Positions 6,276 to 25,287 of a stretch of 64,000 nt of DNA are shown here, one piece after another; positions within the stretch are counted from its first letter, which is position 1; every line of letters begins with the position of its first letter. The DNA is from Desulfobulbaceae bacterium (GTDB lineage: Bacteria > Desulfobacterota > Desulfobulbia > Desulfobulbales > Desulfobulbaceae): NCBI GenBank assembly GCA_023544645.1, contig JAMJFO010000008.1:4032-68031 (forward strand), read 5' to 3'. The notes below the pieces were generated by a model, which ran no database searches, was not told where the DNA came from, and saw nothing but the letters and a program-made list of their open reading frames with translations. Made by a program: the position numbers and the translations under genes.

Positions 6276-7622
6276 TTATTCAGCTGAAAGCGCCTGATCC
6301 AGGTCGGAAAGAATATCATCAATATGTTCAATGCCAACTGACAGGCGGACAAAATCAGGGGTAACACCGGCCGAAACCTGTTCTTCAGGCGTTAACTGCG
6401 AGTGGGTGGTGGATGCCGGATGGATGGCCAGACTCCGGGCATCACCAATATTTGCCAGATGGCTGAACAACTTGAGATTATTGATAAAGCGCTTCCCGGC
6501 TTCCAGACCTCCCCTGATGCCGAAACCGACCAGCGCCCCATACCCTTTCCCCAGGTATTTGCGGGCCAGTTCGTGGGTCGAATGACTTTCAAGGCCTGGA
6601 TAAAGCACCCAGTCAACTTTTGGGTGGTCCTGGAGATATCTGGCCACCGCCAGAGCATTCTCGCTGTGCCTTTCCATGCGCAAAGGAAGCGTTTCAATAC
6701 CCTGGAGAATAAGAAAGCTGTTGAATGGTGATAAACAGGCGCCGGTATCGCGAAGAAGTATTGTCCTGGCCCGGATAATGTATGCGGCCTTGCCGACCGC
6801 ATCGGCCCAGACAACGCCGCCGTAGGAAGCGTCCGGCTCGGTAAACATGGGGAAACGGTCCGATGCCTTCCAGTCAAAATTCCCTGAATCCACGATAACC
6901 CCGCCCACGGAATTGCCGTGCCCGCCGCAGAATTTGGTCAGCGAGTGTACAACCACGTCAGCGCCGAAGTCAAACGGCCGGCAGAGAAAGGGGGTCGGCA
7001 CGGTATTGTCAACAATAACCGGAACACCGGCCTCATGGGCCTTTGCCGCTATTTTCTCAAAATCAGGCACATTAAGCCCCGGGTTGCCGATGGTTTCAAT
7101 AAACACGCATTTTGTCCGGTCGGTAATTGCCCCGGCAAAATCTTCGGGCTGGCTGTCCCTGACAAAGGTGGTGGTGATGCCATACCTGGGCAGGGTATGA
7201 TGAAACAGGTTATAGGTGCCCCCATACAGGCTGGATGAGGAAACAACATGATCACCCTGTTCACAGATGTTGAGAATGGCATAGGTGATGGCGGCAGATC
7301 CCGAGCTCGTGGCCAGGGCGCCGACACCACCCTCAAGTTGAGCCATCCGCCGTTCCAACACATCGGTGGTCGGATTCATAATCCGGGTGTAGATATTGCC
7401 CGTGGCATCCGGGGAAAAATCCTCGGGCCGCAGCCCCTCGGTATCAAGGTTGAGCCGGGGGGCCCAAACTTCCGGTTTCAAGCTGAACAGGCTTGCGGCA
7501 TCATCGGTGTCGGCAAACACATAGCTGGTGGTCTGGTAGATGGGTACCGCCCGACTGCGGGTTGCCGAATCAGGAACATGCCCTCCGTGCAGGACTATGG
7601 TTTCTGCTTGCAGATGTTTCAT
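6276..7622 (-). CDS. metY: O-acetylhomoserine sulfhydrylase
   Basis: Cys/Met-metabolism PLP enzyme that makes homocysteine directly from O-acetylhomoserine and sulfide, the step after MetX. ATG 7622, preceded by AGAGAGGA, gives 448 residues. The PLP lysine is K230 in [13 protein letters not shown]; the [15 protein letters not shown] and [11 protein letters not shown] family motifs are present. Between the AASLF motif and NIYTRI there is an extra segment of roughly 27 residues compared with the typical enzyme (about residues 47-74), which may mark a subfamily. Divergently oriented to the Uup-like gene. Confidence 0.92.
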
Positions 7623-7873
7623 CAGTTTCCTCTCTTTTAAAATAAACTTGCCCTGGCTGTCGGTTATCCTTAACAAACCCTGGAATCAAATTGTATCCGT
7701 CCCCATGGCAGGAGCAGGAATTTTTACCACAACGTGGTGCTATATTCAAGAAAAAACATCCCTGCTCCAAAAGCAGAAAAGTGATTACCATTCTTGTTTG
7801 ACAGAACGCAGCTACTTCATTATACATTCCTCAATGCCTGTATCCACTATAATAATCTTCTTTCCCCGTATTC

Positions 7874-9709
7874 ATGACATTACTGCTCACCTGCCAGAAT
7901 ATACGCAAGGCCATTGGTCCGCGAACACTGTTTGACTCGCTCTCATTTACCGTGAACAGGGGGGACCGCCTGGCGCTCATCGGCGCCAACGGCTCAGGCA
8001 AAACAACCCTGCTCCGCATCCTCGCCGGCCTTGATTCACCTGACCAGGGTAAAATTTCTCTTGCTCAGGATGTCCTCCTCGGCTATCTGCCCCAGCAGGA
8101 AAATCTTGATGAGCACGCTTCTGCCGCCGAGGTTCTTTTTGCCGCCCTCCACAGCGAACACCTGGATGAGGCGGAACGGCACAACCAGGTCAATGCCATG
8201 CTGAGTCGAGCGGAATTCGACAATTTCGACGTGCCGGTTTCCACCCTGTCGGGGGGATGGCGCAAACGGCTGGCCATCTGCCGGTCGCTTCTGCTGCGGC
8301 CGGACCTGCTGATCATGGACGAGCCCACCAACCACCTTGACCTGGAGGGAATCGTCTGGCTGGAAAAGCTTTTGAACAACGCCTTTCCCGGCTGCCCATC
8401 CACCTTTATCATGGTCAGCCACGACCGTTTTTTTCTTGAAAACCTGGCCACCAGGGTCATTGAAATCTCCCCCTCTTATCCGGAAGGAAATTTCCAGGTT
8501 GACGGCAATTACTCCACCTTTCTCCAGCGCAAGGAACAGTTTCTGGACCAGCAGCAGGATCTTGAATCAAGATTGACAAACCGGGTCCGCCGCGAAACGG
8601 AATGGCTGCACCGGGGCCCGAAAGCAAGAGCAACCAAGGCCCGCTACCGGATCGATGAAGCGCATCGACTCAAAGAAGAACTTGGCCGGTTGAAAACCCG
8701 TAACAGGCTCCGCACTGATATTGCTATTGATTTTGATGCCACCGGCAGAAAAACCAAAAAGCTGATGACCGCCAAGGGGCTGTCCAAATCCTATGATGGC
8801 AAAACTCTTTTCGCAGACCTGGATATCATCCTGTCACCGGGAAAACGGATCGGCCTGCTGGGCAAAAACGGCAGCGGCAAATCAACCCTGATGCAGATCC
8901 TTGCCGCGGCCGGCAGAACAGACGGGCTGCAGCCGGATACGGGTTCCATCAGGACTGCCGATGGGGTCAGGATCCTTTATTTCGCGCAGGACAGAAGTCG
9001 GCTTGTTCAGGAACATACCCTGAGGCAGGCGTTGTCACCTGAGGGTGATTCGGTGATGTACCGGGACCGTTCACTGCATGTCGTCACCTGGGCCCAGAAA
9101 TTCCTTTTCAGGGCTGATCAGCTTGACACCCCGGTGGGCAACCTGTCCGGCGGAGAGCAGGCCAGGATCCTCATCGCAGACCTCATGCGCCGTCCTGCCG
9201 ATATTCTCCTGCTCGACGAACCCACCAATGACCTGGACATACCTTCGATCCAGGTCCTGGAAGAAAGTCTTCTTGATTTTCCCGGGGCCATTGTCCTGGT
9301 TACCCATGACCGTTATCTGCTGAACCGGATATGCGATCTTGTTCTCGGCTTTGACGGACAGGGGAACGTCACGGCATTTGCCGATTATCAACAGTGGCAG
9401 GATTCGCTTGATCAGCAGATGAAAAAAAGTAGCAGGATCTCTGAAACTCCCCGACCGAAACAAATCAGGGAAAAAGCCGGGCGGCTCTCCTACCTTGATC
9501 AGCGTGAATATGACGGCATGGAAGAAATGATCCTGGCGGCGGAAAAAGAAGAACAGGAACTTCTCATGACCATGGACGATCCGGAAAATGTTTCTGACCC
9601 GCAATTATTGCAGGAGTCCTGGAAGAATCTTGAAAAGGTGCAGGAAAAAATCAAACAGCTCTATGCTCGATGGGCAGAGCTGGAAACAAAAAAAAACAGC
9701 GGCAGCTGA
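7874..9709 (+). CDS. uup: ABC-F family ATPase, Uup-like
   Basis: 611-residue soluble protein with two tandem ABC ATPase domains and no membrane segments. Domain 1: Walker A GANGSGKTT (about residues 36-44), signature LSGGWRKRL, Walker B LLIMDEPTNHLD. Domain 2: Walker A GKNGSGKST, signature LSGGEQARI, Walker B ILLLDEPTNDLD. A charged helical linker joins them, and the last 90 residues form a charged coiled coil typical of Uup. Uup relatives bind ribosomes or branched DNA; which role applies here is unknown. ATG 7874 has no clear ribosome-binding site. Confidence 0.9.
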   Translation: MTLLLTCQNIRKAIGPRTLFDSLSFTVNRGDRLALIGANGSGKTTLLRILAGLDSPDQGKISLAQDVLLGYLPQQENLDEHASAAEVLFAALHSEHLDEAERHNQVNAMLSRAEFDNFDVPVSTLSGGWRKRLAICRSLLLRPDLLIMDEPTNHLDLEGIVWLEKLLNNAFPGCPSTFIMVSHDRFFLENLATRVIEISPSYPEGNFQVDGNYSTFLQRKEQFLDQQQDLESRLTNRVRRETEWLHRGPKARATKARYRIDEAHRLKEELGRLKTRNRLRTDIAIDFDATGRKTKKLMTAKGLSKSYDGKTLFADLDIILSPGKRIGLLGKNGSGKSTLMQILAAAGRTDGLQPDTGSIRTADGVRILYFAQDRSRLVQEHTLRQALSPEGDSVMYRDRSLHVVTWAQKFLFRADQLDTPVGNLSGGEQARILIADLMRRPADILLLDEPTNDLDIPSIQVLEESLLDFPGAIVLVTHDRYLLNRICDLVLGFDGQGNVTAFADYQQWQDSLDQQMKKSSRISETPRPKQIREKAGRLSYLDQREYDGMEEMILAAEKEEQELLMTMDDPENVSDPQLLQESWKNLEKVQEKIKQLYARWAELETKKNSGS

Positions 9710-18021: not shown

Positions 18022-20271
18022 TCACTCCGGTCGGACAGAGATGATATCGTGCAGGACTTTGCTCAACTGCTCCATATCAAAGGGTTTGGTTACCACCCCG
18101 CTGAAACCGTATGCATAATATTCAGCCATGACCGGATCATTGGAGTATCCGCTTGAAACAATCACTTTCGCTCCGGGGTCCATCTGGAGCAGGTTGGCTA
18201 CAGCCTCCTTGCCGCCCATGCCGCCGGGAATGGTGAGATCCATTATCACGGCATCATACGGAACAGCATTGAGCATGGCTTTCCGATAGAGCTCCATGGC
18301 TTCGGCGCCGTCCCTGGCAAAGGACGGCTCATAGCCAAGATGGGTGAGCATTTCTCCGACAATACCCCTGATCTGTTCTTCATCATCCATGACCAGCACA
18401 CGCCCTGTCCCATGCAGATCCAGGCCTGACAGCTCTATATCCGCTTCCCGGGCCGAAGATCTCCGGGCCGGCAGATAAACAGCGAACGAGGTACCGGCGC
18501 CGGGTTTGGACTCAACCATGATGGAGCCCCGGTGCTTGCTCACGATTGAATGACAGATGGTCAGTCCCAGGCCGTTGCCATACTGCTTGGTGGTGAAATA
18601 GGGATCAAATATCTTTGCCCGGTCTTTTTTTGATATACCCGGTCCCTGATCGGTAAAAACCATTTTGACATAATCACCGGGCGCCAGGGAGACAGGATCA
18701 TTCTCCCTGACTACCACATTCTCGGCCTGCACCGTCATGATGCCCCCGGCCGGCATGGACTGCGCCCCATTCAGGATAATATTCTGGATGACCTGGCTGA
18801 TCTGCCCTTTATCGGCGTTGACCGGCCACAGGCGCTCTTTATAATGATATTCACACTTGACGTTGGAGCCGCTCAAAACGAATCCGGCTGATTCCTCGAT
18901 CAGCTCCTTGATCGACAACAATTTCTTGACCGGTTCACCGCCCTTGGAAAAGGTGAGCAGCTGCTGCGTCAGATTCTGGGCCCGGACAGAGGCCTTCTTG
19001 GCGCTTTCGAGCCAGCCGTGTATTTTGTCACCGGAAGCCACTGTTTTCATGGCCAGGTCGACATAACCTATGATGCCGGTAAGCAGGTTGTTGAAATCAT
19101 GGGCAATCCCTCCCGCGAGAACCCCGAGTGATTCCAGCTTTTGCCCCTTGAGAAGCTCTTCTTCCATTTTTTTGCGCTCGGTGATGTCGCGGATAAAACA
19201 GAAATAATTGCCTTTGTGTTCCATTTCGGCAAAGGTTGCGCTGATTTCTCCGGCCACTATACCGCCGGACTGTGTTTTCAAATTGACCTGGGAGGTCAGT
19301 GAACCTGTTTTTCTGACCCGGGCAAGAATATCTTCCCTTTCCGGGAAAAGAGGAAGCTCAATGAGATCAATGAAGCACATGGCGGTAATTTGGTCTTGGG
19401 AATATCCGGTCATGCCGCAGAGGGCCGGGTTTGCTTCCGCCACCCTCCCTTCTTCGTCAATCAGGACAAAACCATCGGTTGAAGTCTGGAGGATGGTCTG
19501 ATTGCGGAGCATATGGGAGAGTATTTTCTGGTTATTCTCCGACAGACTGTGACTCATGTCGTTGAACGATTCCATGAGCTCCCTGAATTCATCCCGCCCC
19601 GTATAGGAAGAGGTATATCCCAGCTCTCCCTGACGTATTTTTCTTGTGGCTTTGAGCAGTTCCGACACCGGCCGGGTTATAGTGTTTATCAGGTAAAGGG
19701 CGACAATGATAACTATGGCCAGGGAAACTGCCAGGGTAAGGGCCAGCAGCTGCCGGGATCTGCTTACTTTTTCCTGGGCATCGATTGTCCGGCGGCGGAG
19801 TGTTTCATTGGCGGCCAGAGCCATTTCCTGGGAACCGGATATGATCATGTCGCCAATATCCGCGGCAACTGCCTGGAGTCTTCCAATGCGCTGTCTGTCT
19901 GCGGTGGAGGTGATAAAATAGCTCAGGGCCTCCTTGTACTGTTCGGTAAGGGCCTGCAGATCCAGTATCTCCTGCTCGACTTCTGGCTCGTGATGGCACT
20001 CCGTGCATGTATACACCCTGTCCTGGAGCTTCAGGACGTTGTCGACAATAACATCAAGTTCCTTGCCGAACAGGGTTCCGCTGGTATACAGATTTGATTG
20101 GACGGTCTGGACATTGATGACCAGTTCCTGACGGATAATCTCAACCTTGTGCAGGGTCAGGAGAGCGTCGAGATTTGCGGTTGTCTTGTTGACTATGTAG
20201 AGCGTCAAGGCAATGCCGGACAGAAAAAGCAGAAAGAGTGCCATAAATGATAAGATAATTTTTTTCTTCAT
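18022..20271 (-). CDS. hybrid sensor histidine kinase with CxxCH haem motif in its periplasmic domain
   Basis: 749 residues. Order: transmembrane helix 1 (about 5-27); periplasmic helical domain (28-172) with CTECH at 89-93, a c-type haem-attachment motif; transmembrane helix 2 (174-198); HAMP (198-250); PAS (255-365); HisKA with phospho-acceptor His391 in GGIAHDFNNLL; HATPase domain (about 490-605, with DQGPGI and GNGLGLT); C-terminal receiver with VLVMDDEE and phospho-accepting Asp in VIMDLTIPGG. It overlaps the preceding binding-protein gene as TGATG and ends a five-gene operon with a decaheme cytochrome. No output DNA-binding domain, so a partner regulator must lie elsewhere. Predicted role: redox or ligand sensing for the conduit (inference). 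Confidence 0.9.
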   Translation of the reverse strand: MKKKIILSFMALFLLFLSGIALTLYIVNKTTANLDALLTLHKVEIIRQELVINVQTVQSNLYTSGTLFGKELDVIVDNVLKLQDRVYTCTECHHEPEVEQEILDLQALTEQYKEALSYFITSTADRQRIGRLQAVAADIGDMIISGSQEMALAANETLRRRTIDAQEKVSRSRQLLALTLAVSLAIVIIVALYLINTITRPVSELLKATRKIRQGELGYTSSYTGRDEFRELMESFNDMSHSLSENNQKILSHMLRNQTILQTSTDGFVLIDEEGRVAEANPALCGMTGYSQDQITAMCFIDLIELPLFPEREDILARVRKTGSLTSQVNLKTQSGGIVAGEISATFAEMEHKGNYFCFIRDITERKKMEEELLKGQKLESLGVLAGGIAHDFNNLLTGIIGYVDLAMKTVASGDKIHGWLESAKKASVRAQNLTQQLLTFSKGGEPVKKLLSIKELIEESAGFVLSGSNVKCEYHYKERLWPVNADKGQISQVIQNIILNGAQSMPAGGIMTVQAENVVVRENDPVSLAPGDYVKMVFTDQGPGISKKDRAKIFDPYFTTKQYGNGLGLTICHSIVSKHRGSIMVESKPGAGTSFAVYLPARRSSAREADIELSGLDLHGTGRVLVMDDEEQIRGIVGEMLTHLGYEPSFARDGAEAMELYRKAMLNAVPYDAVIMDLTIPGGMGGKEAVANLLQMDPGAKVIVSSGYSNDPVMAEYYAYGFSGVVTKPFDMEQLSKVLHDIISVRPE

Positions 20272-21197
20272 CAGTCGGCGCTGCCGTTCAGTATCTTCAT
20301 CCCCGCATCTGCAGCCATCTCCTCAATAACCGCAAAATCATCCGGATCCGAACGGACAAAACGGCGCGCTGCCAGCTGCTTCAGGACATTGTGACCTTCA
20401 ATGGTCTGATCCATGTTGAGCAGAGAGGTCCGCAATTTATCGAGCAACTCGGGGGCCAGTTCTCTTTTCAGGCAAAGTGTCACCTCGGGCATCTCCGGCG
20501 ACGTGGCGATTATGCTCAGCTCATCCAGTATGGAAGAATCCCTGCCCACCAGTTGATTATACACCGTGTTCTTTGCCGATCCGATATCGGCCCGGCCGTC
20601 AAGCACTAAGAACACGGCCGAAGCGTGGCTGCCGGAATAATAATGGCGGCTGAAATGGGAATCGAGATCTTCGATGCCATGCTGCCGAAAAAAAGCCCGG
20701 GCAAAAACATAGCCTTCGGCTGTTGCCGGATCGACGAAAACCACGCTCTTGCCGCGCATATCCTCAACATTTTTTATACCGCTGTCTTTGCGGACAAAAA
20801 TATAACCTTGCGAGGTCGAACCCTCATCCAGGTTTACCAGGTTCGCAACCGGTGTCAAGCCAAGCTCCCTGATCGCCAGTGCTGCCGTATAGGAACTGAG
20901 CAGCGCACCGTCCAGGCGAAGAGACCTGAAGCGCTGCAGCACCTCACCGTAACGGCTCATGATGGTCAACTTGACCTCCAATCCAAGTTCATCGGAAAGG
21001 TAAGCGGCCAGCGCCCGGTATCGCTGCATCTGATCAAAGATGTTGTGTTCCGGCTCAATACCGATCAGCAGCTCCCTGTTTCTGTCTCCGGCCCGGACCT
21101 GGGTTGCGACACAGGTATAAATGAGCAGCGCTGCCATGGGCAGCACCAATAGCCGCCGGTAGAATCTCCAGCGCCCGGCATGATCAGGGAATGTCAT
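20271..21197 (-). CDS. PhnD-like periplasmic substrate-binding protein, orphan
   Basis: 308 residues with an N-terminal membrane/signal segment (about residues 12-36, ending near VRAGDR), then a type II periplasmic-binding fold of the phosphate/phosphonate (PhnD) class. Family hallmarks: IGIEPEHNI, the YTAALAI segment, DMRGKSVVFVDPATAEGYVFARAFF, and HHYYSG-like SRHYYSGSHASAVFLVLDGRADIG. No permease or ATPase is nearby. It overlaps the upstream binding-protein gene (ATGA) and the downstream kinase gene, suggesting that it presents a ligand to the kinase rather than feeding an importer. The ligand is unknown. Confidence 0.85.
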   Translation of the reverse strand: MTFPDHAGRWRFYRRLLVLPMAALLIYTCVATQVRAGDRNRELLIGIEPEHNIFDQMQRYRALAAYLSDELGLEVKLTIMSRYGEVLQRFRSLRLDGALLSSYTAALAIRELGLTPVANLVNLDEGSTSQGYIFVRKDSGIKNVEDMRGKSVVFVDPATAEGYVFARAFFRQHGIEDLDSHFSRHYYSGSHASAVFLVLDGRADIGSAKNTVYNQLVGRDSSILDELSIIATSPEMPEVTLCLKRELAPELLDKLRTSLLNMDQTIEGHNVLKQLAARRFVRSDPDDFAVIEEMAADAGMKILNGSAD

Positions 21198-22138
21198 TTG
21201 ATAACCCTTGTTGCCTCGATGATCAACTGGATGGGGAAGGTGATTCCCAGCTCTTTTGCTTCAGCAAGATTAAAAATGAGCTCCGTCTCCCGTAACAGCT
21301 CCGGCGCAATATTGTCGGCCTGCTCTCCGCCGATGATTTTCGCGGCGATTTCCGCCGCAGCCTCTCCCTGCTGAGCGGGCGGCTGAAACAGGGTTATCAG
21401 CATGCCGGTTTCATTGGAGTCGGGAAAGATACCGACGGCCGGAATTCTTTTCTCCCGCAACGATGTCAATATCTCATCGCTCCAGACATGGGCCAGGGAG
21501 CTTCCCGTCATATAGACGGCATCGTTTTCGCTGATACCCTTGAGTTTTTTTAAATCGCCGCGGGACCTGATGTCCATCCTGACCGGATTTATATTCTGCT
21601 GTTCCGCCAGGCTGACAAGTTCGGTCATCTGGCGGACGGTGTCCTCCTCGGTTGAACTGTACACCACCCGCAGATCCTGTATATCCCTGATCCGCTTGAA
21701 ATAACGCAGCAGACTTGACAAGGGGATTTTGTAGCCGCAGCCGCTGACCTGGCGACCTTTAAAAGCAGCCGCCTGCGGCTCATACACGCCGGCATAGACC
21801 ACAGGAATGGAGCTTTTTTCAAACAAGACCGCATGGGTGGCCGGAGCGCCGTAACTGACAATCAGGTCAACATCAAGGGCAATGAGTTTTCGCGCCGCAT
21901 TGCTCCAGGCAATGGGATCGGGGAACGGCCGCTGGAGGATAAACTGTACTTCCTGGTCGGGTGGCAGCTTTTTTTTCAACCCGTCAACAAAGGCCTGGTG
22001 CATGGATCCGTAATAAGGAATGTCCCCGGTCATGATAACCCCGATCAGCACTTTTGCGGCAGACAGGCCGGGAAAGCAGAGGATCAGCAACAGGACGGAC
22101 AGCAAGCCGCCTGCGATATATTGCCGGAAGACCTTCAA
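21194..22138 (-). CDS. ABC_sub_bind-type periplasmic binding protein, orphan
   Basis: 314 residues. Cleavable signal peptide (about residues 1-28, ending FPGLSAA), then a periplasmic-binding fold of the ABC_sub_bind/TrpX-like class, with DLIVSYGAPATHAVL, IPVVYAGVYEP, the central VVYSS region and FPDSNETGMLITLF. The start is TTG at 22138, immediately after the TAG of the barrel gene; the signal peptide requires this start. No cognate transporter genes in the window. Together with the PhnD-like protein it places two different binding proteins in one operon with an electron-transfer conduit. Confidence 0.82.
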   Translation of the reverse strand: MKVFRQYIAGGLLSVLLLILCFPGLSAAKVLIGVIMTGDIPYYGSMHQAFVDGLKKKLPPDQEVQFILQRPFPDPIAWSNAARKLIALDVDLIVSYGAPATHAVLFEKSSIPVVYAGVYEPQAAAFKGRQVSGCGYKIPLSSLLRYFKRIRDIQDLRVVYSSTEEDTVRQMTELVSLAEQQNINPVRMDIRSRGDLKKLKGISENDAVYMTGSSLAHVWSDEILTSLREKRIPAVGIFPDSNETGMLITLFQPPAQQGEAAAEIAAKIIGGEQADNIAPELLRETELIFNLAEAKELGITFPIQLIIEATRVIK

Positions 22139-24157
22139 CTAAAAATACCTCTTGACGGTGAAGGTGGTGATAAACGCTTCATCATCCTGCTCAACGCCAG
22201 CGCCGTCGTTGAACCGGTCCTCAAAAAAATCTGCGGCAAAGCTGACCCCGACCTCCCAGTCCTGCAGGATCTTTTTGGCAAGCCCGACCGTAACCATGGT
22301 CTCCGTTGTTTCCATGGCGGAAAAAGAACCCAGTGTGGAAGAATTTCCTGCGATGACATCCCCGGGCAGGTACTCTCCCTCGGCAATAGTATAGCTCAGG
22401 TCCGCGGTCAGGGTCAGATCCTTGCGCAGCAGATAATACAGGGACAGAATAAAAGTGTTTGACTCGTCGCTATAGGGAACACCGCGGTCATAATAGGGCA
22501 GATCACGCCCGGCCCCCGTGGTGCTCCAGAGAGTGTAGGCCAGGTCCTGCTCTATTTTCCGCCTGTTATAGGCCCAACTGGCCGTCAGGGTTACTTCGGG
22601 CGAAAAGAGCAACGACAGGCTGCCGAGAAAACGATCCATGCGCCCGTCTCTCTCTCCGTCTTCCAACAGAACAAGCTCATTACCCTGCAAATACTGCAGC
22701 TCCTCCCGCTGCATGAGGCGCAAGCTGTAATCACAAAAAACGGTTATCCAGCCGACCGGAGTATAGGTTGCGTTGAGGCGGATCTTGTTTGAGTGATCCG
22801 GTTCGGTATTATAGGAAGGATTGGCGTAAGCCTCGTAATCATAGATGGCCTTCAGCTTCAGCGTATTCAGAGGCCGGGCATGGGCAGTCAGGTTTATCCG
22901 ATGCACATCCGAGTCTGCCGGCAGAACGATCCAGTCGTCAATATCCGTGCGCTTGCGGTGTTCAAATTCATAATTACCGATCAGGGTCAATTTGTTCAGG
23001 GGGCGATATCGCGCCGACAGGGAAAACAAATCCTTTTCTGTGGAGATGGGTGTCCTGACCGGGTAGGTGATCCGGTTCACCAGTCCTGACAGGACAACCT
23101 GTTCCGGATTCTCCTTGTCCTTTTCCTGGTGCCTGTATTTGAAAAAAAGGCTGACAACCGGATCGGGTATCCACCTGAGATCCATGGCCGCCTTCCACCC
23201 ATCTGATTCGGCGCCGCTGTAATTATTCGTGTTTTCAGCATTGCTTAAGGTGGCGGAGGCAACGATTTGTCCGGTAAACGAGGAGTGAAACCTTATGGTA
23301 TTGCCGGAGGATTCCGTTTCCGGGACCACATTGTGCGGATAGGTGTCGCCCGGCCTGCCAAACACCGTGGAAGAGGGAAAATAATCATAGAGGACGCTTC
23401 CTGTGCCGGGATCGAATGTTGACTCGTTGCGGCTGAATTCGACCTCCACCGGTCCCAGGTGGCTGTTCATCCCCAGGGTCAGGTCATTGGATTCCCAGTT
23501 AATATCCCTGCTCTCGGAGGTCTTGATCAAATTACCGATACTGCCGGCCAGAAATCGTTGTTCCAGAATCCCCTCCCGCTCCACATATCTGTGCTTTGCG
23601 AACACATGCAGGGGGAAATCCGGAGCCTTGGCCCGGAGCAGCAATTCGTTCTTGATGAAATCGACATAATTTTCATCACCGGGGCTTCGATCCTCGAATA
23701 GCACCGCCGGAGGATCACCCGGATAAAGATAATTATAATGATCGAGATTATGGTGAATCCCTACGAATACATTTCTGAACAGCAGCAAATCCTTGTAGGC
23801 ATAGCCGAAATCGGCATAATTATTGTGTTCTCCGAAATATTCCAGGTGCATATGATACCGGTGCGGCAGCGGACAGGCCAGTCCGTCAAGGCCCAGGGCA
23901 ATGGAAGATTTGCCGTCCTCATACTCGGCGGACCTGCCTGCTGTATCGATATTAACGGCGCGAAAGCCCAGGTAAAAAGAACCCTCCCCTTTATAATGGG
24001 GGAGAATTTCGTCATTGTTTTGCGTTATTTCATCACTCCCGGAGCTTTCCTCCAGGTCGGCATCACTGCTTCCGGCCGGCGCTGAAACAGCAAAGCCACA
24101 CAGGAAGAATACCAGGGTCCAGGTTACAACACGCTTCGGAACGAGATGGTATATCAT
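22139..24157 (-). CDS. MtrB/PioB-like outer-membrane beta-barrel of a cytochrome conduit
   Basis: 672 residues. Signal peptide (about residues 1-29), then a short acidic linker and a long series of alternating amphipathic beta-strands with aromatic girdles, ending in the outer-membrane C-terminal Phe (TVKRYF). Size, low cysteine content and the gene order after a decaheme cytochrome match the MtrB/PioB decaheme-associated porins that sheathe a multihaem wire. ATG 24157 is supported by GGGAGG ahead of it and by an ATGA overlap with the cytochrome gene. Strand count is not determined here; the family has 20-28 strands. Confidence 0.8.
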   Translation of the reverse strand: MIYHLVPKRVVTWTLVFFLCGFAVSAPAGSSDADLEESSGSDEITQNNDEILPHYKGEGSFYLGFRAVNIDTAGRSAEYEDGKSSIALGLDGLACPLPHRYHMHLEYFGEHNNYADFGYAYKDLLLFRNVFVGIHHNLDHYNYLYPGDPPAVLFEDRSPGDENYVDFIKNELLLRAKAPDFPLHVFAKHRYVEREGILEQRFLAGSIGNLIKTSESRDINWESNDLTLGMNSHLGPVEVEFSRNESTFDPGTGSVLYDYFPSSTVFGRPGDTYPHNVVPETESSGNTIRFHSSFTGQIVASATLSNAENTNNYSGAESDGWKAAMDLRWIPDPVVSLFFKYRHQEKDKENPEQVVLSGLVNRITYPVRTPISTEKDLFSLSARYRPLNKLTLIGNYEFEHRKRTDIDDWIVLPADSDVHRINLTAHARPLNTLKLKAIYDYEAYANPSYNTEPDHSNKIRLNATYTPVGWITVFCDYSLRLMQREELQYLQGNELVLLEDGERDGRMDRFLGSLSLLFSPEVTLTASWAYNRRKIEQDLAYTLWSTTGAGRDLPYYDRGVPYSDESNTFILSLYYLLRKDLTLTADLSYTIAEGEYLPGDVIAGNSSTLGSFSAMETTETMVTVGLAKKILQDWEVGVSFAADFFEDRFNDGAGVEQDDEAFITTFTVKRYF

Positions 24158-25173
24158 TGGGTAAACCTCCCCGTTCCTGAAGCGGAAGGAACGTCCGAGC
24201 CATGGATTGTCGAATGGCAGTCGGTGCATCTGGTGTAAAACGCCCGGGCGGATTCAGGGGAGATTCTGTCGCCTGCCCGGTTGTTAACGGCATGTCCTTC
24301 ATGACACTGCAGGCAGAGAAAAGGCTCCCGCGCATTGAGCAGGTTGGTGTTCACCGATCCATGCGCAGTGTGGCAGTTCTGGCAGTCATCCATCACATCG
24401 GCATGCTCGTACAGAAAAGGTCCCCGCTTGTCAGGATGACACTGGACGCAGCTTTCCTTGACACTTTCCTCCTTGAGCAGACTGCCGGAAATACCACCGT
24501 GGGGATCGTGACAATCAATGCAGAAAACCCGTCCCTCCCTCAAGGGATGATGACTGGTCAGAGAAAACTCAACCTGGGCGGCCTGATGACAGCTGAAGCA
24601 CAGCTGTCCGGATTTTATCGGCGTGACCTTGAGGTCCGGACTTTGATGGACTTTGTGACAGTCAAAACAGGAAACATCGCTGATGGCATGGGTGCCCGCA
24701 TTCCAGTTGTGCAGATTAAAGGTGGCGTTGGCCGAGTGGCACTTCAGACAGGTCAGCGACTGCGCAGGGGCAGGAAGATTTTTCAGGTCGATCAGTGTCT
24801 TGTAATCACAGGCGGTCTTTATCCCCTGCCGGGCATTTTTTTCAACCAGCTCCCGGGTCAGTCCGCTGATGGCCACACTGCCCGGCCCGTGGCACGACTC
24901 GCAATCAACCAGCGGCATGCCAGACTCCTTTTTCAACTGGGCGCCCATGGTGCTTGCATCAAAAAACTCCTTCAACCGGTCATGCTCATGGCATGCGGCC
25001 AGGCAGTTCTGCGTGCCGACATAATCGGCATAGAGATTGCCTACGATCATTTTTTCATATTCCTTCTGGGGCAAAAGAGGTCTGGAGCCCTTGAGCCCCT
25101 GGCACCCGCCCATCAATACGAGAAGAAATACGAATATGCCTAGGATTGGTATCCGGTAACCTGTATTACACAT
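24154..25173 (-). CDS. decaheme c-type cytochrome lipoprotein (DmsE/MtrA-like)
   Basis: 339 residues with a hydrophobic signal ending in LMGGC, a probable lipobox with Cys24. Haem motifs at residues 57 (CLAACH, one residue longer than usual), 91, 142, 169, 192, 218, 242, 264, 287 and 316: nine CxxCH plus one CX3CH. Distal His ligands are plentiful between them. Paired with the barrel gene, it should form the periplasmic wire of an outer-membrane electron conduit. First gene of the operon; a 27-bp palindrome lies about 90 bp upstream of its start. Confidence 0.9.
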   Translation of the reverse strand: MCNTGYRIPILGIFVFLLVLMGGCQGLKGSRPLLPQKEYEKMIVGNLYADYVGTQNCLAACHEHDRLKEFFDASTMGAQLKKESGMPLVDCESCHGPGSVAISGLTRELVEKNARQGIKTACDYKTLIDLKNLPAPAQSLTCLKCHSANATFNLHNWNAGTHAISDVSCFDCHKVHQSPDLKVTPIKSGQLCFSCHQAAQVEFSLTSHHPLREGRVFCIDCHDPHGGISGSLLKEESVKESCVQCHPDKRGPFLYEHADVMDDCQNCHTAHGSVNTNLLNAREPFLCLQCHEGHAVNNRAGDRISPESARAFYTRCTDCHSTIHGSDVPSASGTGRFTQ

Positions 25174-25260: not shown

Positions 25261-25287
25261 ATTAATATTACAGCATGTAATATTAAT
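25261..25287. promoter_or_regulatory. 27-bp perfect palindrome, candidate operator of the cytochrome operon
   Basis: Arms ATTAATATTACA and TGTAATATTAAT, 12 bp each and exactly complementary, flank a 3-nt spacer (GCA). It lies 88 bp upstream of the decaheme cytochrome ATG. A plus-strand T-run follows, but there is no plus-strand gene upstream to terminate. A dimeric regulator binding site is the best guess; it does not match the FNR box (TTGAT-N4-ATCAA). Confidence 0.5.

Follow-up and report, generated by a model that had tools for sequence, protein, structure and literature searches.

Several described systems come close to parts of the locus reported here. In the AioX/ArxX/ArrX-S-R systems, a PhnD-like binding protein is encoded beside the kinase that controls a respiratory system, and the arsenite-sensing mechanism of AioX involves a pocket that includes a conserved cysteine, Cys106 (PMC5908839). 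Regarding kinases activated by binding proteins, many are encoded beside those proteins, which is a recognised pattern (PMC11113362). In the sCache_heme group (DUF3365/Tll0287) of c-type haem sensors, signalling proteins have CXXCH in their periplasmic domain (PMC12889525), and in G. sulfurreducens the deletion of GSU2507, a sensor kinase encoded beside omcS, alters omcB transcripts (PMC11077965). Each part of our locus is of a known kind. The limited literature that could be searched yielded no description of the joined unit, of the helical sensor family with CXXCHH or of the apparent rewiring to OmcS.

The locus lies in a 64,000-nucleotide stretch of DNA from a Desulfobulbaceae bacterium (contig JAMJFO010000008.1), the whole of which we call the window. 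Using the list of open reading frames and profile searches, we found five overlapping or abutting ORFs on the minus strand, from 25173 to 18022, in the order CYT-BAR-ABC-PHN-HK (Table 1), with the place and strand given in a preliminary description. The junction types that it listed were also borne out: ATGA between CYT and BAR, provided that BAR starts at 24157 (the likely start) and not at 24229, where its ORF opens; stop/TTG between BAR and ABC at 22139/22138; ATGA between ABC and PHN at 21197; and TGATG between PHN and HK at 20271. A perfect 27-bp palindrome, ATTAATATTACATGCTGTAATATTAAT, is found at 25261-25287 of the window, 114 nt upstream of the CYT start. As a candidate regulator site it was rejected, because the same place in the relatives holds no palindrome.

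Table 1. Features of the five-gene block, in window coordinates
Feature	Position	Strand	Basis
CYT, lipoprotein MtrA/DmsE-type decahaem c cytochrome	24154..25173	-	TIGR03508, haem-motif count, 6r2q match
BAR, MtrB/PioB-like outer-membrane barrel without CXXC	22139..24157	-	PF11854
ABC, orphan PF04392 ABC_sub_bind periplasmic binding protein, TTG start	21194..22138	-	nearest PDB 3lft
PHN, orphan PF12974 PhnD/PtxB-like periplasmic binding protein	20271..21197	-	PF12974
HK, hybrid histidine kinase: TM - four-helix CXXCHH sensor - TM - HAMP - PAS - HisKA - HATPase - REC	18022..20271	-	
CXXCHH haem-attachment motif of the HK sensor (CTECHH, residues 89-94)	19990..20007	-	

The first two genes have the features of a known conduit module, in agreement with the preliminary description. 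CYT matches TIGR03508 (DmsE family) with 257 bits against a cut-off of 192, and holds ten haem sites (nine CXXCH and one CX3CH, CLAACH) and a lipoprotein-type Cys24, after which a motif is conserved in the orthologues. Among solved structures its best relative is the MtrA chain of 6r2q (E 1.8e-42), for which the PDB table has a different label. BAR matches PF11854 with 44.3 bits against a cut-off of 23, scores 33 bits with NCBIfam TIGR03509, under the cut-off of 240, and ends in an aromatic residue, as is typical of outer-membrane barrels. With the MtrAB, DmsEF and PioAB conduits the block shares an MtrA/DmsE-family decahaem cytochrome and an MtrB/PioB barrel in adjacent, overlapping genes, so that CYT-BAR is a predicted transmembrane electron conduit of the MtrAB type. 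It differs from them in that the cytochrome is a predicted lipoprotein, the barrel lacks CXXC, no gene for a surface cytochrome of the MtrC/OmcA type adjoins CYT-BAR in the window, and the operon runs on into a sensor kinase.

The domains HAMP-PAS-HisKA-HATPase-REC of this kinase have intact phosphotransfer motifs, and the CTECH previously noticed in its periplasmic domain is confirmed at residue 89 and belongs to a conserved CXXCHH sensor family. C89, C92, H93, H94 and H41 are invariant among 48 aligned sensors; among the 111 collected sensor domains, 107 have CXXCH with the following His (H94) and 101 have His41. In Pfam, only HAMP covers the sensor region consistently. The AlphaFold2 model of the sensor (mean pLDDT 85) is all-helical, with four long helices and the CXXCHH in the loop that connects helix 2 to helix 3; by helix length, His41 would stand at about the same height as this loop, which makes it a candidate axial ligand. 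The best Foldseek match of the model is NarQ (E 7.5e-4). XylFII-LytS and TorT-TorS are also found among the fold matches, weakly, and those to TorS are within the range observed for any helical bundle. Both systems resemble ours in joining a binding protein to a helical-bundle sensor, a fold likeness that is weakly informative for helical bundles, but our binding proteins come from other families (PF12974 and PF04392) and we know of no haem motif in the TorS and LytS sensors. The CXXCH in a periplasmic sensor is also shared with sCache_heme (PF11845). However, the HK sensor is a predicted all-helical bundle and not a Cache fold, and membership in DUF3365/sCache_heme was rejected, since 0 of the 48 members match PF11845 and the model is all-helical. 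We consider the CXXCHH bundle a likely haem sensor domain, outside any Pfam family. GSU2507 was likewise discarded as a characterised member: the sensor family is found at E<=1e-20 in just nine of the 76 genomes of Pelotalea's family (Geobacteraceae), and for this reason the GSU2507 phenotype is not carried over to our kinases. The window's genome also encodes a third CXXCHH kinase (L085, G000:C87), located beside argF and without an adjoining PHN, whose counterpart in genome G006 (L086) has one.

Regarding the binding proteins, ABC matches PF04392 with 82 bits and PHN matches PF12974 with 185 bits. The structures nearest to PHN by profile are PtxB/PhnD, ArrX and AioX, and its Tyr83 and His191, which align with residues of the oxyanion site, are invariant. 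The only cysteines of the window PHN are at positions 29 and 242, and the position aligned to AioX Cys106 is G, S or T; in addition, the equivalent of AioX Ser163 is a Glu in the window PHN and that of AioX Tyr131 is changed. Arsenic sensing by the AioX mechanism (PMC5908839) was therefore rejected, as the pocket cysteine is missing from PHN. What our locus has in common with AioX/ArxX/ArrX-S-R is an orphan PF12974 binding protein adjoining a sensor kinase; it departs from those systems in the absent pocket cysteine, the CXXCHH of the kinase sensor, the second binding protein (PF04392), the fusion of the receiver to the kinase, and neighbours that are a conduit and nitrogen genes, with no molybdoenzyme. 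In another locus (L169, 9362-11228, minus strand), two PHN-type binding proteins stand in tandem before one CXXCHH kinase.

The block is not a chance arrangement, since the same order recurs among the relatives. Close orthologues of the HK sensor (58-73% identity) were found in 12 genomes besides the window's after searching 57 genomes; CYT-BAR-ABC-PHN-HK is intact in seven of these relatives and broken only at contig ends in three more. A scan of 62 loci from Desulfobacterota and Nitrospirota, sharing some genomes with the first search, gave the complete five-gene order in 21 of them, including four Nitrospirota loci (L130, L132, L135 and L143), with six others stopping at a contig end. The preliminary description would have been contradicted by relatives that lack the kinase and binding proteins beside the cytochrome pair; instead, the five families co-occur in two phyla. 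The flanks vary: the relatives of the window have nitrogen genes there, L072 has genes for a phosphate transporter and L073 an NrfA-like cytochrome. Encoded by a Cytochrom_C552 gene at 7356-9002 (minus strand), immediately downstream of the conduit-linked kinase, the latter is a possible terminal reductase in that genome. The distances of BAR, ABC, PHN and the HK sensor correlate with r 0.89-0.97, a value in which shared descent is still included. According to these results, we lean towards a block that combines an outer-membrane conduit with a binding-protein-assisted haem sensor kinase, which would adjust the genes for extracellular electron transfer.

The conduit had been proposed to possess a private sensing arm. 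The arm itself holds up, but it is not private: PHN-HK pairs without a conduit are widespread, trios of ABC-PHN-HK occur without CYT-BAR in L115 and, within Nitrospirota, in L118, L123-L125 and L129, the kinase stands alone in L110, and the sensor family also occurs far from any conduit. PHN-HK with an NtrC-type regulator is found beside multihaem cytochromes in L091-L093, L165, L168-L171, L173 and L175. The unit is modular, and the supposed private arm is better seen as belonging to a broad family of sensor modules, of which a single branch became joined to a conduit.

The assignment of both binding proteins to the sensor fared unevenly: PHN follows the kinase, while the place of ABC is insecure, because CYT-BAR-ABC is found without PHN-HK in L094-L098. 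One could argue that ABC serves the conduit as an accessory, e.g. a periplasmic shuttle or an acceptor-binding protein, and that PHN-HK alone makes up the sensor. We regard this as a serious possibility, although not a probable one. Besides the loci just mentioned, it is favoured by 18 loci that have PHN-HK without ABC, two of which are truncated where a contig ends; the conduit-free trios speak against it, as does the resemblance of their ABC proteins to that of the window, with about 250-290 bits compared with 95-161 bits for the conduit-only ones. Two further observations concern the conduit-only loci. A small periplasmic coiled-coil protein (..KVPV..LEKEN..) is encoded near or directly after CYT-BAR-ABC in L094, L095, L096 and L098, which have no PHN-HK. 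In L097 (3090-5804, minus strand), the genes after CYT-BAR-ABC encode an EB_dh haem-binding protein (PF09459, ethylbenzene-dehydrogenase-type) and a signalling protein of the HAMP type; this may be a further conduit, served by a sensor of another kind.

It is also conceivable, but in our judgement unlikely, that the haem of the kinase is itself the sensor, its redox state being set by electrons from the conduit or the periplasmic pool, and that the binding proteins are structural or modulatory. The near-constant CXXCHH and His41 described above would fit this, and so would the association of the wider kinase family with multihaem cytochromes and the 11 of 61 classified loci in which no PHN immediately precedes the kinase (a few of these loci are truncated at the end of a contig). 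However, PHN is adjacent in most loci, tracks the sensor through many rearrangements, and retains two invariant oxyanion-site residues, Tyr83 and His191. Even less credit is given to a role in transport of phosphite, phosphonate or aromatic solutes, with the permease encoded elsewhere and the kinase merely sharing the operon: PF12974 and PF04392 are transporter families and the nearest PDB structures are PtxB/PhnD and 3lft, but a motif scan found an ABC ATPase beside 0 of the 21 complete cassettes, in line with the earlier remark that the binding proteins lack a permease, the PHN-HK pairing is kept without the conduit, and kinases activated by binding proteins are often encoded beside them (PMC11113362). 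Finally, it is hardly credible that the kinase arm regulates the neighbouring amtB-glnB-glnD and follows the conduit incidentally. In its favour, these nitrogen genes come after the kinase both in the window and in the relatives close to it; against it, the order is kept with unrelated flanks in L072, L073 and in Nitrospirota, so synteny disfavours it.

Returning to the binding-protein-assisted haem sensor kinase, its output was approached through the kinases of a sister clade. In L064, L066, L072 and L073, the conduit-linked kinase is short, having lost PAS and the receiver. The sensor halves of these four kinases share 78-97% identity among themselves and about 65% with that of the window. 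Their catalytic halves, in contrast, share 58-70% identity with the kinases of the PHN-HK-NtrC loci L090-L092 (OmcS loci), whose sensors are only around 30% identical to theirs. Judging from these identities, the conduit-linked kinase of the sister clade is a chimera between a conduit sensor half and an OmcS-locus catalytic half. In the tree, the short kinases group together as a single, fully supported clade (15 rows).

A catalytic half taken from an OmcS-locus kinase predicts that the genomes with a chimeric kinase need the NtrC regulator. An orthologue of this sigma54 regulator (at least 64% identical) was found in 13 of 15 chimeric-kinase genomes and in one of 11 hybrid-kinase genomes (Fisher p 1.7e-4, relatedness ignored), a contrast that is not independent sampling, given that the chimeric kinases form one clade. 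The hybrid-side exception is the window's own genome, which holds a complete, separate PHN-HK-NtrC-OmcS locus (L092, L221), and on the chimeric side the exceptions are L106 and L127, where no close regulator passed the cut-off. The regulator of L218 and L220 lies beside OmcS genes with no adjoining kinase, and the only strong match to this catalytic type in those two genomes is the conduit-linked kinase. The contig of L113 carries, after the conduit cassette, a kinase, NtrC and two OmcS-like genes, the first of which was confirmed against the OmcS structure. The hexahaem OmcS homologue matches PDB 6ef8 (E 9.3e-62) and adjoins the PHN-HK-NtrC module in related genomes. Near-consensus sigma54 sites, with scores from 14.3 to 16 of 16, precede the OmcS genes in L209, L210, L213, L217, L219, L221 and L223, and none was found before those of L212, L218 and L220. 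Sigma54 control of the conduit cassette itself was rejected, since no site before CYT rose above shuffled sequence in 20 of 20 cassettes. Giant cytochromes with 42 and 35 CXXCH motifs are encoded beside PHN-HK-NtrC modules in L169 (11270-14419, minus strand) and L219 (16415-18952, minus strand), respectively.

According to these data, the sister-clade kinase probably switches on extracellular filaments of OmcS-type cytochromes. On the output side too, then, the arm would not be private to the conduit, as this kinase appears to be wired to the sigma54 regulator of such cytochromes. The connection to OmcS applies only to the sister clade, because the window's kinase is of the hybrid form; the OmcS filament/NtrC locus is absent from the window and lies on another contig of its genome (L092), with a kinase of its own.

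We propose a working likeness to AioX/AioS and TorT/TorS. PHN, probably together with ABC, would bind a small solute without a transporter and dock on the four-helix bundle of HK. This bundle would carry one covalent haem in the CXXCHH loop, with His93 as axial ligand and His41 and His94 as candidates for the second, and a haem placed in a bundle on which a binding protein docks may allow the kinase to read ligand and redox state together. The kinase would then adjust the genes for extracellular electron transfer. In the window's genome, we infer that HK phosphorylates the receiver domain that it carries itself; for the sister clade, the most likely target of the chimeric kinase is the sigma54 (NtrC-type) regulator, which would activate the OmcS-like filament cytochromes. 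A bolder extension, which we consider doubtful, is that the kinase haem swaps electrons with its own conduit, in which case the outflow of electrons would be measured directly, gated by solute-loaded binding proteins, and filaments would be built or withheld.

Little is understood of how bacteria sense extracellular electron acceptors. In our data, a sensor kinase accompanies an outer-membrane conduit in two phyla, and a single clade appears to have a rebuilt version that matches the regulator of OmcS filaments. What results is a testable set of defined genes, promoters and a predicted regulator partner, together with what is likely to be a haem sensor domain, and it opens a concrete way to learn how these bacteria sense what they can respire.
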